Shown piece by piece: positions 54,231-62,258 of a DNA stretch of 64,000 nt. Position numbers and translations under genes: made by a program. The stretch covers positions 372,001 to 436,000 of the forward strand of contig NZ_VLNY01000001.1 of assembly GCF_008297975.1 (NCBI RefSeq), written 5' to 3'. A model generated the notes under the pieces. The model searched no databases, had not been told where the DNA came from, and saw only the letters and a list, made by a program, of their open reading frames with translations. How positions within the stretch are numbered: the stretch's first letter is position 1; every line of letters starts with the position of its first letter. This DNA comes from Antrihabitans cavernicola (GTDB taxonomy: Bacteria; Actinomycetota; Actinomycetes; Mycobacteriales; Mycobacteriaceae).

Positions 54231-54877
54231 GCTGGACACGCGACGAGATGGCAGCTCGTGCTGCCGCGGAACTCTCCGAAGGCGACTATGTGAACCTCGG
54301 AATCGGTTTGCCCACACTGATTCCCGACCACATGGCCGAGGATGCGAACATCACCCTGCACGCGGAGAACGGCATCCTCGGTGTCGGCCCGTTTCCCTAC
54401 GAAGAAGACGTCGACCCCGACCTGGTCAATGCGGGCAAGCAGACGGTGTCCGTGCAGCCGGGTGCGTCTTTCTTCGACTCCGCGACCAGCTTCTCGATGA
54501 TTCGAGGCGGGCACGTCGACGTTGCGGTGCTGGGCGGCATGCAGGTGGCTGCCAACGGCGACCTCGCCAACTGGATGGTTCCCGGCGCAATGGTCAAGGG
54601 CATCGGCGGCGCCATGGATCTGGTCAACGGCGCGGGTGTGGTGATCGTATTGATGGAACATTCGACGAAACGTGGTGAACCCAAACTGGTTGCTGCGTGC
54701 AGTCTTCCGCTGACCGGCAAGGCGGTGGTGCAGCGGATCATCACCGACCTCGGCGTTTTCGACACCACGGGTGCCGGCTTCGACCTGATCGAGCTTGCCC
54801 CTGGCGTCACCTACGACGACGTGGTGGCGAAGACCGGCGCACCGGTGATCGACAAGACGAGCGTGGCCTCAGCGTAG
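54227..54877 (+). CDS. pcaJ: 3-oxoadipate CoA-transferase subunit B
   Basis: This is the 216-residue beta subunit. The catalytic Glu lies in [15 protein letters not shown], which forms the glutamyl-CoA thioester. Also present is [14 protein letters not shown] at the N-terminus and [29 protein letters not shown]. Its last three codons overlap the converging LuxR/LAL gene by 9 bp. No transcription terminator is visible in the overlap. Confidence 0.92.
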
Positions 54878-57526
54878 GGACGCTGCGAGCTCCGACCTCG
54901 ACCGCACACCGAGCTTCGCGTAGACCCGAGTGAGGTGGTACTGCACCGTCTTCTGCGAGATGTACAACTCAGCGGCCACCTCGCGATTCGACATCCCTTG
55001 CGCGACAAGCGAAGAGACTGCTTCCTCCTGCGGAGTGAGGTCGATGTCCACGGTACGACCGCGCGGCGCGTTGAAGCCACCGGCACGCAGTTCCCTGTCG
55101 CAGCGCGCGACATAAGTGGTTGCCCCGAGCGACCGGTAGAGGTCTCTCGCATTGGACATGATCGCATCGGCCGCGCGGCGTTTACCCGCCCTGCGCAGGG
55201 TTTGACCGTACGCGAAGTTGACTCGGGCCTGGTCGTAGCGCAGTGGCAAGCCTTCCAACGCGGCCAATGCCGACTCGAACGTTCTTCTGGCAGCAGGCAG
55301 CTCACCCGCCGCCCCCAGCAGACGTCCACGCGCGTAGGCCAGGCGAGCCGTCGCCGACCGCTGCCCTCGGTCGCGCGCGCATTCCTCGTGCGGGCGAAGC
55401 AACTCGTCGGCTTCGTTGAGCTGCCCCTCCAGCACCAGCGCGTTGGCTAGCACGTCCACCCACGGCCAGAAGCCGGGCTCGACAAGCGCCGGCGTCGTCT
55501 CCGACAGCCGAACCATCGGATGGAGCACCTGGCGCACCCGAGCGTAATCGGCTGCGGACTCCGCCAATTGAGCTCGTGCGAGCAGCGTCGGTACCGCCAT
55601 TATCTGGTACGACCCGTCGGTCGCGATCGCCTCCTCGACCGCTTCTTGCGCGCCGTCCCAGTCGCCGCGCAGAGAATGAATCTGCGTCGCGGTCCACTCC
55701 AACAACGGTGTCGCGAGCACGATCCCGCTGTTGCGCGCCAAGATTCGGCCGCGGGCGACGGTCTGCAGCGCCGCATCCCAATCGCCGGTGACGAACTCGA
55801 CGCGCGCCAACCAACCCAGGGACCACAGTGTGATTCGCGTCGATCCGCCGAGTGCGGCCATCGATTCGGCGGCTTCCAAACTGCTCCGTGCGGCCACCGG
55901 GTCGTCGAGACCGAATTCCAACCAGCCTCGTGCCATCGTCACCCGCTGCGACTGCGCGCCGTGTCGAATGGTTCCGGATAGCCGGTCGTACATCGCTCGC
56001 GCCTCGCCGGTCTGCCCGGACCACGCCAGACCGAGACCGCGAATTGCCGACGCCTCGACACCCGTCGGTGTGTCCGGTCCGTCGAGTTCGATTGCCCTGT
56101 CGGCCCATTCGACCAGCGTCGAGCCCTGACAGCGCGCCAGCGAGTCGAGGACGTATCGCTGCGCGATCACTGCGGCAACGTCGGGTTCACGCTCGACCAC
56201 CACGATGTTCCACGCTCGACTCAGTCTCATGCCCGCCTCGTTGGCCCGTCCCCGCAGTATCGCCAGATACGCGAGAGTTGCGTTGCGCAAGGGTGTTTCC
56301 CGCAAGCTCTCCACCGCAGGCACAAGGGCGGCTGCACCGAGGCAGTCACCGGCCGCGAGCAGCGCGTCCACCGCGCGGATCAAGCGGTCGTCGCGAACGA
56401 GAGGATCCGCACTCAATTGCGCTGCTTGCCTGAACAATCCAGCCGCATCGCTCCAGCCACCGTCGGTGGCGCGTTCGCGGCCCAGCGCGTCGAGCCGATA
56501 CGCCAGCGCGGGATCCGCGGCCGAGGTCGCCGCCACCCGGTGATGCAGCGTCCGCGCTGGATCGGTCACGATCGCCGCCGCACGGCGATGGGCATCGGCG
56601 GTGGCTCGCACGCCCATCAGCGTTGTGACCGCCGCGGCGAACAGCGGGTTGCGCAGCTTCGGCAACTCGGCGGCCGGACGCAGATCGCCAGGCGCCGCAA
56701 GCAGTCCGACCCGGGCAGCATCGTCGATGGCGGTGAACGGGTCTTGCAGACCCGCCAGTTCTGTTGCGGTGGCGAAGTTCTCGCGATCGTCGAGAATCGC
56801 GAGGGCCTGCACCAGTGACCGCCCGTGAGCGGTGCAGGCGTCCAGGCGTTCACGCACGTCGTCGACGACGAATCGCGGTGCCGGTATCTCGGTGTCCGGC
56901 TTCGCCCACGCAGCGGCGGGCACCTCGCCAAGGAGAGCAAGCACAGCACGCGGGTTGCCGCATGTGTGGCCGGTGAGCCGCTCGACCGTGGCGGGGTGCA
57001 TCACCAGACCCGCTCGCTGGGCGAGTCGCATCACGGCAGCACCGCCGAGTCCGTCGAGTCGAATGCGTGTCGACGTGCGGGTGTCCACCAGTGCGTCGGT
57101 GTCACGCGATGCCAACACCACCAGGGTCGCCGTAGCTCGGTGGTGCGCGGTGATGCTGATCAGAATCTGCATCGATTCGCGGTCGGCGTAGTGGGCGTCG
57201 TCGATGACGATGAGCCCCGGCCCGTCGTGCTGCCACCGCGTCAGCGCATCCGAATACTCCGCAGCACTGGTGAATTCAGCCTGCAACAGTTGCCCGAGCA
57301 CTGCGAACGGCCGCTGCGCTTCCCATTCGACAGCCTGCGCCCACAGCGCGGGATGCACACCGCCGCTGGTCCGTTCGTAGAGTGTGCGCAGCACTGTGCT
57401 CTTACCGATCCCCGGTGGGCCGAACAGGGTGACGAACGCCGCCCCGTCGGTCGAGGTAGCTGCAACCCGCTCGACAAGATCGGCCACGACGGCGTCGCGG
57501 CCGACACAGTCCGTCGAAGCGGTCAC
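54869..57526 (-). CDS. LAL-type LuxR regulator (ATPase + TPR-like + HTH)
   Basis: This is an 885-residue large ATP-binding regulator of the LuxR family. The N-terminus has a Walker A ([12 protein letters not shown], residues 35-46) and a Walker B ([11 protein letters not shown]). The middle (300-800) is helical and TPR-like. The C-terminal LuxR helix-turn-helix includes [45 protein letters not shown]. It follows the benC/benD gene by 18 bp, so it is the last gene of the benzoate operon and a candidate activator of it. Effector and ATP requirement are unproved. Confidence 0.92.
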
Positions 57527-57544: not shown

Positions 57545-60238
57545 TCACCCCAGGTCCCCGCCCGCCACCGGAAGCACGGTTCCGGTGATGTAGGACGCCT
57601 CGTCGGAGGCGAGGAAGCAGATAGCCGCCGCCTGCTCGTCGAGGGTGCCGTAACGCTTGAGCAAGGACGACCCGATGGTCTGATCGATATGCGCCTGGAA
57701 CCAGTCGCGCTCGACGTCGGTCTTCTGCTCCGGTGTACCGCGCGAGATGCGGCGCGGCGGAGCCTCGGTTCCACCGGGAGCGGTTGCTACCACCCTGATT
57801 CCATCGTCGGCGTACTCGAGCGCCAACGACGCGGTGAGGGCGTTGATCCCGCCCTTCGCAGCCGAATAGGGAATCCGGTTGATGCCGCGCGTCGCCGCCG
57901 ATGACACGTTCACGATCACTCCGCTGCGGCGCCCCACCATCTCCGGAAGCACAGCTCGCGCCATGTACAGCGTCGTCATCAGCGATCGCTCGATCTCGGC
58001 GCGAATCTCGGAGTCGGTGAACTCGATGAACGGTTTGAAGTTGATGGCACCGCCGACGTTGTTGATCAGCACGTCGATGCGCCCGTAGGTGGCGAGTGCG
58101 TGCCGCACGACCGCGACCGCGCCTGCGGACGATTCGAGGTCTGCGGTGACCGCAGATGCCTCACCGTCGGTGGCGAGGTCGGTTGCCAACTCGCGCACCA
58201 ACTCCGAACGATCTGCAAGGACCAGCCGTCCGCCCTCGGCGCCGATTCGGCGGGCAGTCTGCTCGCCGATCCCTTGTGCGGCACCGGTGATGACCACCAC
58301 CTTGTCCGCGAAACGACCGGGCGTGACGAACTTCGGCCGTCGCGCAGTCGAGCGGTCCGCCATGGCACGCCGCATCGTCTGCTTCGACCGATCGGCATGC
58401 GCGCTGACCAGCGCGCGGGCCTTGTCACGGTCGCCGGATTCGAACGCGTCGACGATGTCCACGTGGTCCTGCGAGCACAGCGGATGGCACCAGGTCGCGT
58501 CGCGCAGCGCCTCACTCATCCGGCCCTTCACGTCGAGAGCCTTGTATGCCTCCAGCAGGTGGGTGTTGCCGGTCTGCGTGAACAGGTAGTCGTGGAATGC
58601 GGCGTTGGTCTCGGTGTATTCGGTTGCGTCGACGAAGTGATCGCCCGACACATAGGGCATAGTTGCGTCGGCTAGCAGGCGATAGCCGGATAACTGTCGA
58701 CTGGTCATCCGCCCGAACGTCAGCTCCAGCGCGCCGAGTTCCAACGCAGCTCGAGCCTCGAAGACCGCGTCGGACTCGTGGATTCCAGGATGCTCCTCAC
58801 CGATCTGGTAGCCGGCCGAACCGACAGTGACGGGAACGGGCGCGGGGGTAGGCGAAGGCGAAGAAGAAGGCGCGGCGAACATCTCCTGCCCCGCGATCGA
58901 CCGACCGCCACCGGAAAGCAACATCCCGCTGTCCGCGTCCAGCGGCGTCGATTCGCCTGCCCTGGCAGGCCAAATCGATTGACCCGCGATCTGTCTGCGT
59001 GAATCGGCGTCGTCGGTGCTCGGCATCGCGCCGTCCCATGGTGTCATGGCAGCGGCAGGCAGAATCTGCTGGCGTGCAACGGTTCTGGCATCGGTTGCAA
59101 TGATCAACTCCTCGGACACGACGTCGACCGACAACTGCGCGGGGCGCTCGGCGACAGCAGCCGGCCTTGCGGCCAGCGCGAACTTCTCGTAGTAGAAGCC
59201 GGTCGGCTCCACCCCGGACTCCGAAATATGGGTACGCACCGATTCCACCATCGGCGGTGGGCCGCACAGGTAGATCGCGACGTCGCCGTTGTAGAGGTGT
59301 CGCGGTTCGAGCAGGCTCGTCACGTAGCCCTTGTTCGCGGCGGTGCTGGTATTCGACGAGACGCAATGGTCCCAACTGAATCCGGGCAGCGCTGACTCGA
59401 AGTATGCGATCTCGTCCAGTGCCACCAGATCTTCGTCCGTCGAGACACCGTAGATCAGGTGTGCCTTGCGAGGACTGTTGTCGTCGTGCATCTTCGAAAG
59501 CATCGACAGGATCGGAGCGAGCCCGGTGCCACCGGCAAGGAGCACCACCGGCCGTGCCGACTCACGGAGGAAGAACGAGCCGTGCGGACCGGTAAAGGTG
59601 ATCGCGTCGCCCACCGCGGCTCGATCGGCGAGGTAGGTTGACATCGCGCCGCCCTGAGTCAGCTTGATCAGGAAGGTCAGCCGCTCCTCGTGCGGCGCGT
59701 TGGAGAACGAGTACGACCTCGTCACCGGCGCCCCCGACCCGTCGTCGGTTCCCGGTACTGCGATGTTGACGTATTGACCTGGCAGAAAAGCCAATTCACC
59801 GCGGTTGGGGATGGTCACCGCGATCTTCATCGTGGTGCCGGACAGACGAACCAACTCCACGACCGTGGCGCTGAAGGTGGCTGCCTGCGTCTTGGCGATG
59901 TCCGACGTCGCGGCGATCTGCAACACCAGATCGGAGCGCGGCTTCATGCAGCAGGGCAACGCGTAGCCGTCGTCGGATTCGCTGGGCGACAACGCATCGT
60001 CGATGTAGGTGCCGCCGTCGTAGTCGCCACTTTCGCAGAGCGCCTTGCAGGTCCCGCACGCACCGTCACGACAGTCGAGCGGAATGTTGATCCGTTGCCG
60101 ATACGACGCGTCGGCGACGGTCTGGTCTTCGCGGCAGGTGATGAAACGGGTTACGCCGTCCTCGAAGGCCAACGCCACCTGGTGGGTCGCACCCGCGGAA
60201 GTGGTTGCGCCCGCGGTTCGTTCGTTCGTGACTGTCAT
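57545..60238 (-). CDS. Fused BenC-FCD-BenD: benzoate dioxygenase reductase with cis-diol dehydrogenase
   Basis: This 897-residue protein combines two pathway enzymes. Residues 18-110 are a plant-type [2Fe-2S] ferredoxin (CRDGACGTC, Cys56, 61, 64 and later Cys96 or 97). Residues 115-355 are FAD (RSYSFSN) and NAD (GGTGLAP, CGPPPM) modules: BenC, which feeds electrons to BenAB. Residues 356-480 form a low-complexity Pro/Ser linker. Residues 485-627 match the FCD domain of GntR regulators (His549, His592, His614 as metal ligands) without any DNA-binding part. Residues 640-897 are a classical SDR (TGAAQGIG, NNVGG, YSAAK): BenD, which oxidises the diol to catechol. The frame is continuous, with no sign of a missing stop. 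Confidence 0.9.
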   Translation of the reverse strand: MTVTNERTAGATTSAGATHQVALAFEDGVTRFITCREDQTVADASYRQRINIPLDCRDGACGTCKALCESGDYDGGTYIDDALSPSESDDGYALPCCMKPRSDLVLQIAATSDIAKTQAATFSATVVELVRLSGTTMKIAVTIPNRGELAFLPGQYVNIAVPGTDDGSGAPVTRSYSFSNAPHEERLTFLIKLTQGGAMSTYLADRAAVGDAITFTGPHGSFFLRESARPVVLLAGGTGLAPILSMLSKMHDDNSPRKAHLIYGVSTDEDLVALDEIAYFESALPGFSWDHCVSSNTSTAANKGYVTSLLEPRHLYNGDVAIYLCGPPPMVESVRTHISESGVEPTGFYYEKFALAARPAAVAERPAQLSVDVVSEELIIATDARTVARQQILPAAAMTPWDGAMPSTDDADSRRQIAGQSIWPARAGESTPLDADSGMLLSGGGRSIAGQEMFAAPSSSPSPTPAPVPVTVGSAGYQIGEEHPGIHESDAVFEARAALELGALELTFGRMTSRQLSGYRLLADATMPYVSGDHFVDATEYTETNAAFHDYLFTQTGNTHLLEAYKALDVKGRMSEALRDATWCHPLCSQDHVDIVDAFESGDRDKARALVSAHADRSKQTMRRAMADRSTARRPKFVTPGRFADKVVVITGAAQGIGEQTARRIGAEGGRLVLADRSELVRELATDLATDGEASAVTADLESSAGAVAVVRHALATYGRIDVLINNVGGAINFKPFIEFTDSEIRAEIERSLMTTLYMARAVLPEMVGRRSGVIVNVSSAATRGINRIPYSAAKGGINALTASLALEYADDGIRVVATAPGGTEAPPRRISRGTPEQKTDVERDWFQAHIDQTIGSSLLKRYGTLDEQAAAICFLASDEASYITGTVLPVAGGDLG

Positions 60239-60251
60239 CGGAGAATCCCTG

Positions 60252-60767
60252 TCAGAAGTGGTAGATGTCCACGACGTGGTGGATGTAGTCGTTCTTGAGC
60301 ACTACTGTCTTGCGACGGATCAGTGGCTGATCACCGGAGAAGTCGATCGTGTAGAACGACGTTCCGTAGTACGCATCGATGGTCTTGTACCGGAAATACA
60401 TTGTGTGCCAGTTGAATCGGATGTCGACCAGGTCCCCGGTGCGCTCGATCACCTCCACGTTGGAGATGTTGTGGCTGGTCCGCGGTTCCGGGATGGACGT
60501 TGCCGACGATCGCTCGGTGCGGATGCGGAACACCCGATCTTCCAGACCGCCCTTGTTTGCGTAGTAGATCAACGAGACGTCGCGCTGCGGGTTCTCGACG
60601 AGCAGGTCGGCGTCGTCCCACGACGGCATCCAATAGACGACGTCGTCGGCGTAGCACTCCAGCCACTTCTCGAACTCACGGTCGTCGAGGTAACGCGCCT
60701 CGCGGTAGAGAAACTGTTCGATCACGTTCTGCGTGATCAACTTCGGGCTTGCTTGCGATGTGGTCAT
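60252..60767 (-). CDS. benB: Benzoate 1,2-dioxygenase small subunit
   Basis: This is the 171-residue beta subunit of the aromatic-ring hydroxylating dioxygenase. It has the cone-like NTF2-type fold of the family: FLYREARYLDDREFEKWLECYADDVVYWMPSW, and FRIRTERSS. It has structural and perhaps specificity roles. The start ATG at 60767 has AGGAG; the upstream frame is a shadow of benA. It begins 5 bp after the benA stop and ends 13 bp before benC/benD. Confidence 0.95.
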   Translation of the reverse strand: MTTSQASPKLITQNVIEQFLYREARYLDDREFEKWLECYADDVVYWMPSWDDADLLVENPQRDVSLIYYANKGGLEDRVFRIRTERSSATSIPEPRTSHNISNVEVIERTGDLVDIRFNWHTMYFRYKTIDAYYGTSFYTIDFSGDQPLIRRKTVVLKNDYIHHVVDIYHF

Positions 60768-60772
60768 CGTCC

Positions 60773-62173
60773 TCACTCCTGCGCCGCGGTTGTTGCGGAC
60801 TGCTCGGCGGACAACGCCGCTCGCATCGAATCGAGCCAGTACCCGTGCTGCACCGGATAGAGCCCCTCGTCCTCGTTCTTCACGCCTGCGGAGACCACGC
60901 CGTCCATGCCGAGCGACTTCGCGACGTCGTCCGGCCCGGTCAGCCAATGCTCGGCGCCACGGCTCATGTCGTTCCACGGCGCCGCTTCGCCGCGGAAAGT
61001 CAGCTGGCAGGAACGGAATTCCTCGAGATCGTCCGGCGTCGCCATGCCCGATGCGTTGAAGAAGTCCTCGTACTGCCGGATTCGAGACGACCGCGCTTCG
61101 TCGCTCTCACCCTTCGGTGCGATGCAGTAGATGGTTACCTCGGTCTGATCGGGCGCGATCGGCCGGAAGTGCCGGATCTGGGTGGAGAACTGGTCCATCA
61201 GGTACACGTTCGGGTAGAGGCACAGGTTGCGCGAACCCTTGACCATGAACTCGCCCTTGGCATCTCCGAACTCGTCCTTCAGTTGATCCAGTCGATCCCA
61301 CAGCGGTCGGTCCTCCGGGTTCGCCGCCCAGGTCCACAGGCAGAGGTGGCCGTTGGGGTACGACCAGTAGCCGCCACCCGACTTGCCCCAGCCGCCCGCG
61401 TCGAGCGCCTTGGTCTCGTTCTTCGATTCGCCGGTGTTGCGGCGGGAGGTGGTTGCGGCGTAGTTCCAGTGGGTGGCGGTGACGTGGTAGCCGTCGGCTC
61501 CGTTCTCCGCCTGCACCTTCCAGTTGCCGTCGTAGGTGTAGGTGGAGGCGCCGCGCAGGACCTCGAGTCCATCGGGTGACTGGTCGACCAGCATGTCGAT
61601 CACCTTGGTGGTGTCACCCAGATGCTCCGTCAGATCCACGACGTCGGGGTTGAGGCTGGCGAACAAGAAGCCGCGGTAGCTGTCGAACTTCGCGACCTTC
61701 GTCATGTTGTGCGAGCCGTTCTTGTCGAACGTCTGCGGGTAGCCGGCTCCCTCCGGGTCCTTCACCTTCAGCAACGTGCCGTCGTTGCGGAACGTCCAGC
61801 CGTGGAAGGGGCAGGTGAGCGTGGTGCGGTTGTCGGTTTTACGGCGGCAGATCATCGCGCCGCGGTGTGCGCAGGCGTTGATCAGGCAGTGCAAGTCGCC
61901 GTCTTTGTCGCGGGTGATCACGACCGGTTGCCGTCCCATGTAGGTGGTGAAGTAGTCGCCCGGCTTCTCCAGCTGGCTCTCGTGCGCCAGGTAAAGCCAG
62001 TTGCCCTCGAAGATGTGCTTCATCTCGAGTTCGAAGATCTCGCTGTCGGTGAAGATGCGGCGGTTCGCGCGGAACACGCCGGCATCGTGGTCGTCGACGA
62101 CGGCGTCGCTGAGCACCGACGCGACATGTCCCAGGTGCGTGGGGAGCGGCGTGGTGGGAAGAGAGGTGGTCAT
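60773..62173 (-). CDS. benA: Benzoate 1,2-dioxygenase large subunit
   Basis: This is the 466-residue alpha subunit that dihydroxylates benzoate. The Rieske centre is CAHRGAMIC...CPFHGW (Cys-x-His with 17 residues to Cys-x2-His). The mononuclear iron site is in [16 protein letters not shown], with two His, and a later Asp. A start ATG at 62173 follows GGAGGG; the 19 residues upstream are not conserved. First gene of the operon benA-benB-benCD-LuxR. Toluate and anthranilate dioxygenases are close relatives, so the substrate range may be broader. Confidence 0.94.
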
Positions 62174-62258
62174 GGTGGTCCCTCCAGATGAGCTGATACT
62201 TGGAGAGTGCCAGTGAGTGGTTTCCGTCACACCAGGTAAAACCCTAAGGTCGCGCCAG

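Follow-up and report, generated by a model that had tools for sequence, protein, structure and literature searches.

The fusion frame and its surroundings

The stretch of DNA analysed here, referred to as the window, comprises 64,000 nucleotides from Antrihabitans cavernicola. It contains a frame of 897 codons on the minus strand (57545-60238), which starts with ATG, has no internal stops and encodes a dioxygenase reductase (BenC), a linker, an FCD domain and a diol dehydrogenase (BenD) in one chain. The single 897-residue frame of the first-pass annotation is indeed one stop-free frame; the minus strand had gone unstated there, and the plus strand read from position 57545 contains several stops. 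The parts of the frame, the copies of a short motif in its linker and the two oxygenase genes upstream are the following:

57545..60238, minus strand: complete frame with BenC, linker, FCD and BenD, 897 aa plus stop; above the equivalog cut-offs for BenC and BenD
59174..60184, minus strand: BenC module, residues 19-355, with 2Fe-2S, FAD and NADH domains (NF040810; Pfam Fer2, FAD_binding_6, NAD_binding_1)
58787..59173, minus strand: Ala/Pro-rich linker, residues 356-484, no family matched
59057..59092, minus strand: linker motif copy 1, residues 383-394, DARTVARQQILP (motif weight matrix)
58967..59002, minus strand: linker motif copy 2, residues 413-424, SRRQIAGQSIWP (motif weight matrix)
58874..58909, minus strand: linker motif copy 3, residues 444-455, GGRSIAGQEMFA (motif weight matrix)
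58319..58786, minus strand: FCD domain, residues 485-640 (Pfam core 492-616), with Arg496, Asn545, His549, His592 and His614 (PF07729 and residue conservation)
57545..58318, minus strand: BenD module, residues 641-897, SDR (NF040811), stop included
60252..60770, minus strand: BenB, oxygenase small subunit, directly upstream of the fusion (TIGR03232, 267.9 bits, cut-off 225.55)
60773..62230, minus strand: BenA, oxygenase large subunit, upstream of the fusion (TIGR03229, 802.7 bits, cut-off 780.95)

The N-terminal half matches the NCBIfam equivalog NF040810 over fusion residues 19-354 with 459.2 bits (curated cut-off 430, model 1-331 of 333), and the C-terminal half matches NF040811 with 400.6 bits (curated cut-off 380, model 1-256 of 256). 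At the level of sequence profiles, these matches establish that the two halves belong to the BenC and BenD families. The Pfam matches are Fer2 at residues 26-100, FAD_binding_6 at 124-222, NAD_binding_1 at 233-335 and adh_short at 646-827. The FCD family PF07729 is found at residues 492-616 with 60.0 bits (gathering score 24.3, E 4e-16, model 2-124 of 125), within the segment 485-627 to which this domain had been assigned, and the proposed BenC/FCD/BenD make-up is confirmed by Pfam and NCBIfam matches over their cut-offs. No GntR HTH family occurs among the ten Pfam matches listed to E 1, so the winged helix of the GntR/FadR regulators was not found, in agreement with the proposal of an FCD domain without HTH inside an enzyme. 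Linker residues 356-491 searched alone gave no Pfam family to E 10 and no NCBIfam family to E 0.001. Residues Cys56, Cys61, Cys64, Cys96, Ser779/780, Tyr791 and Lys795, which we take to be the catalytic or cluster-binding residues, are invariant in an alignment of 57 rows.

Near the fusion there are also genes for LysR-type regulators, an actinobacterial-type catechol 1,2-dioxygenase (over its cut-off), a muconate cycloisomerase-like protein (below the cut-off of its model) and a pcaI/pcaJ-type CoA transferase pair with a thiolase. Judged by these gene assignments, the neighbourhood is a benzoate-catechol-3-oxoadipate cluster. The minus strand also carries, downstream of the fusion (54869-57526), an 885-aa protein whose C-terminus weakly matches the LuxR type; a frame that looks similar by eye is located after BenD in the loci L261 and L262.

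Distribution and architecture classes

A scan of the FCD segment against titled genome records gave 137 relatives, of which the best 80 were kept. All of these are actinobacterial by title, with genera including Gordonia, Mycolicibacterium, Williamsia, Nocardioides, Pseudonocardia, Saccharopolyspora, Geodermatophilus, Amycolatopsis and others, and in all 80 a single frame without stops spans BenC, FCD and BenD. A stop separating BenC from BenD, which the first-pass annotation had named as an outcome that would speak against the fusion, was found in none of them. Within the order, BenC passes its cut-off in 30 of 298 genomes and is fused in 27 of the 30, the window's own genome counted; these loci stop inside BenD, and wider stretches of four of them show BenD complete. 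Together with the 80 kept loci, this provides the taxonomic distribution that had been put forward as a check of the fusion.

In the overlapping samples of the class and phylum, BenC is over its cut-off in 13 of 394 and 4 of 396 genomes. In the family, BenC is over its cut-off in 99 of 301 genomes, with 51 frames of at least 858 aa and 48 shorter ones. Forty-four of the 48 short frames were examined: 40 are BenC-FCD with a separate BenD and four (G003, G1059, G1030 and G228) lack FCD. In the genus of G300, BenC is over cut-off in 42 of 297 genomes, with 38 frames of at least 868 aa and four short ones; the two genomes of the genus of G010 gave none. C. glutamicum, the named control, was positive for BenC in the genome scans. 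The viral collection contained no relative, and among the matches listed for the plasmid collection (at least 5000 records) none covers 80% of the fusion.

The fusion is therefore confirmed and widespread in actinobacteria. The possibility that it is an annotation or sequencing artefact is negligible: the same fusion recurs in every one of the 80 loci kept from the 137 titled relatives, which rules out read-through as well, and purifying selection acts on each of the three domains FCD, BenC and BenD. A different type of long reductase frame was met in seven genomes of one genus (g39, L137-L143; for example L137:4712-7522, plus strand). These frames of 854-937 aa start with an AntC/BenC-like reductase, and in L137 and L139, the two that were scanned, the remainder weakly matches FAD-dependent oxidoreductase families. 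FCD is absent, and they were rejected as members of the same kind.

The loci were divided into four classes: the triple fusion (class A); BenC, a short linker and FCD with a separate BenD (class B); BenC-FCD with a separate BenD in genus g4, of which seven were examined, with long linkers in six and a short one in the seventh (class C); and BenC without FCD (class D). In the careful BenC tree (55 rows, with L157, a BenC-like row on a long branch, left out), the fused class requires two changes (bootstrap 5-95% range 2-2). Change counts alone do not discriminate between histories; the two changes are read as one gain and one loss of the fusion because G300 and G228 nest inside the fused class. 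In the FCD tree (48 rows), a branch with support 100 separates class A from all other rows. In another family, G318 has BenC-FCD and a separate BenD, with an FCD 41% identical to that of the window. The frame L134:3233-6006 (plus strand) is BenC-FCD without BenD and its end adjoins the likely start of a separate BenD; it appears to have the same order of parts in unfused form.

BenC and BenD are both retained in the genomes whose BenC has no FCD (G003, G1030, G1059 and the G300 group). In five of these a close FCD was sought elsewhere and not found: G300 has one match at E 4.8e-4 and G228 none, and the best matches are at E 8.8e-7 in G003, 2.6e-9 in G1030 and 1.3e-7 in G1059, compared with 1.8e-45 or better for the FCDs linked to BenC. 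The locus of G003 (L202) holds an FCD-less, unfused BenC within the window's own genus. In the quick tree it groups with class B, with support 88, away from the window, which suggests that its ben operon was replaced or transferred. Judged from the trees, the fusion was probably assembled stepwise: FCD would have joined BenC first and BenD would have been fused afterwards, and later one lineage would have lost both FCD and the fusion and kept one copy of the linker motif.

The FCD domain and the linker motif

His549, His592 and His614, which had been proposed as the metal-type histidines of FCD, are correctly numbered. Together with Arg496 they are unchanged in all 140 distinct FCD slices (99 of class A, 34 of class B and 7 of class C), one of which is only 41% identical to the window's FCD; Asn545 is kept in 137 of the 140. 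The nickel of the regulator Ps5454 is reported to be bound by Asn144, His148, His192 and His214 (PMC7674646). The steps between these residues are 4, 44 and 22, compared with 4, 43 and 22 in the window's FCD, so that by spacing the domain has the histidines plus Asp/Asn of the metal type. In CitO, metal is reported to be needed for citrate binding, and in DgoR, mutations of metal residues are reported to weaken the binding of D-galactonate. Judged by place in the unaligned sequences, Arg496 may correspond to Arg97 of CitO or Arg102 of DgoR. The nearest solved chains to the window's FCD by sequence are weak matches (best E 0.015).

FCD is the most constrained of the four parts by median dN/dS, with values from 60 sampled pairs of 0.193 for FCD, 0.242 for BenD, 0.268 for BenC and 0.555 for the linker. 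It is also the part in which identity drops most between classes, from 0.763 within class A to 0.523 between A and B. BenB has the second-largest drop, from 0.861 to 0.687; BenA (0.796 to 0.697), BenD and BenC drop less. Class-specific conserved differences number 13 of 155 in FCD, or 11 without two gap columns, and are thus more frequent than in BenA, BenC and BenD together (18 of 1067). The low dN/dS and the drop in identity indicate that FCD is under strong selection and is the part most changed around the class split. It is not needed for catalysis, since it is absent from BenC in G003, G1030, G1059 and the G300 group. The conservation of the residues named above is the basis for reading FCD as a possible sensor.

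The linker contains a repeated motif with the consensus D-A-R-[AS]-[IV]-A-G-Q-E-[VMIL]-[FLW]-P, or in a shorter form A-R-[AS]-[IV]-A-G-Q-x-[VMIL]-[FLW]-P. A weight matrix, trained on the very linkers that it counts, found 220 copies in the 79 linkers that remain when duplicates are removed from the 81 of the 80 loci and the window, compared with a shuffled mean of 0.3 in total at equal threshold. Three copies are present in 62 linkers, two in 14, one in two and four in one. In the spacing analysis, where thresholds and linker ends differ, 66 linkers have three copies and the motifs are spaced by 28-34 and 28-42 residues. The pN/pS of the motif core is 0.583 and that of the flanks, whose codons were aligned by distance from the motif and not by homology, is 1.018. 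The linker thus shows what is expected of a docking array, in that a short motif recurs and varies less than the sequence around it, and its composition suggests disorder. The linker of L062 (Amycolatopsis tucumanensis) has, by eye, a near-exact tandem duplication of the motif-plus-spacer unit, giving four copies, and the array can therefore grow by unit duplication.

A different triple motif, ARPVGY, with a spacing of 28-32, was picked by eye in the class C linkers and is present by pattern in five of seven; L195 is a sixth linker with such a triplet, its middle copy recognized by eye only, and L198 has none. The ten class B linkers inspected, which are short, contain no motif over threshold, and neither do three FCD-less BenC tails (G003, G1030 and G1059). 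Docking is therefore, like FCD, not needed; FCD and the motif can each be dispensed with in some lineages. In G300, G228, G1365 and G1265, a single motif copy closes the FCD-less BenC immediately ahead of the stop codon, with V in place of A in G1265, and BenD is separate. The BenC tree includes two of these, G300 and G228, which share 295 of 335 residues in the body and 31 of 35 in the tail; the common tail of the four is partly inheritance because they are close relatives.

Outside the fusions, the motif was sought in the ORFs of L024-L103 and the window, with two weak matches (17.3 and 14.5) compared with 218 inside. In the window's own genome, the DNA pattern gave 18 matches and the reversed control 19, and matrix scores are 24.7-35.2 for the three copies of the fusion and at most 13.4 for any other frame; a genome-wide signal was rejected on these grounds. 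A motif-like match just past the window (G000:C1:436347) is antisense to a catB-like gene, scores at most 9 and was also rejected. With few matches in neighbouring genes and no excess in the genome, co-occurrence names no partner for the motif.

Possible roles of the fusion and comparison with known systems

It is well established that BenC consumes NADH and that BenD returns it; the BenAB oxygenase is trimeric. The reading that we favour, with a probability of roughly 0.45, is a bifunctional tethered enzyme whose linker would dock a partner, most plausibly BenAB, and whose FCD would bind a carboxylate of the pathway. BenC would take electrons from NADH and deliver them to the oxygenase, a separate protein; BenD would then oxidise the cis-diol carboxylate so formed to catechol, regenerating NADH. 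The evenly spaced motifs would make the linker a multivalent tether, and docking would keep reductase and dehydrogenase close to the oxygenase active sites, with NADH recycled locally. FCD would be a retained metal-carboxylate module that senses or holds benzoate, diol or muconate and tunes the complex.

We infer BenAB as the partner from the three motif copies, the trimeric oxygenase and an excess of class-specific conserved changes in BenB, 12 of 171 compared with 18 of 1067 in BenA, BenC and BenD together (Fisher p 3e-4, one clade contrast). This excess may reflect clade divergence because class B comprises only nine sets in the comparison. A more elaborate form, in which a trivalent array that arose or was rewritten on two occasions (R-x-[IV]-A-G-Q and ARPVGY) clips one chain onto the BenAB trimer, appears quite unlikely; it would yield a self-assembling benzoate-to-catechol complex with local NADH recycling, in which FCD gates or hands over the diol carboxylate.

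The conservation of FCD could be interpreted in other ways. The domain might be structural only, serving dimerisation or spacing, with its metal and ligand site a fossil of regulator ancestry. Several lineages do without FCD on BenC, and with no HTH family found no DNA output is expected from it. However, a fossil site should drift, and here Arg496 and three histidines are invariant in all 140 sequences, one of them only 41% identical to the window's FCD, in the most constrained part of the protein, which makes a purely structural FCD rather doubtful. The first-pass annotation proposed that FCD could be a genuine allosteric sensor, with BenC or BenD activity switched by the binding of benzoate or muconate. 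The conserved carboxylate- and metal-type residues fit it, as does the involvement of metal in the reported binding of citrate by CitO and D-galactonate by DgoR. However, a long linker without family precedes FCD and only BenD directly abuts it, and we regard such switching as a minority possibility. The linker motifs, for their part, might bind in cis to FCD, BenC or BenD and fold the protein back on itself, as the confinement of the motif to the fusion protein, within what was searched, would allow. Against this, four genomes keep one copy at the end of a BenC without FCD in frame and with BenD separate; FCD in cis therefore cannot be the sole partner. Binding in cis, for which BenC or BenD might still serve as partner, seems improbable on the whole.

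If the array docks the oxygenase, the favoured tethered enzyme would be a natural, compact coupling of a Rieske dioxygenase, its reductase and the next enzyme with NADH recycling, a design usable in biocatalysis, and FCD would be the ligand domain of a regulator reused within an enzyme. The patterned linker makes the assembly hypothesis testable, and natural variants with and without each part exist for comparison.

It is important to compare the fusion with the systems already known. The solved BenC structure 1krh (338 aa) matches fusion residues 18-354. This protein and two proteobacterial outgroup BenCs have no linker, FCD or BenD attached, unlike the fusion. The metal-type FCD regulators of the FadR/GntR family (Ps5454, TM0439, DgoR and CitO) share the FCD family with the fusion; in the fusion, no winged-helix HTH family was found and FCD is embedded in an enzyme. 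The closest precedent is in Gordonia alkanivorans YC-RL2, whose genome paper (AMB Express 2019, PMC6362181) describes a fusion of benC and benD that includes an FCD domain. The view that no example had been described is thus not tenable. The parts are the same, and the passages of that paper on the fusion do not deal with distribution, linker motif, history or mechanism. In Rhodococcus sp. TG-1, benC is named as an FCD domain-containing protein (PMC11858498); FCD follows BenC as in the fusion but BenD is a separate frame, the arrangement of the 40 short frames above. The benC of R. ruber is listed under a joint reductase/dehydrogenase name (PMC6498646). In the open-access literature we found no dedicated study of the fusion protein and nothing on its linker. 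The fusion itself is not new. What is new is its history, the invariance and constraint of the FCD residues and the spaced motif of the linker, and this repeated motif, overlooked by the first-pass annotation, is the part with the least precedent.
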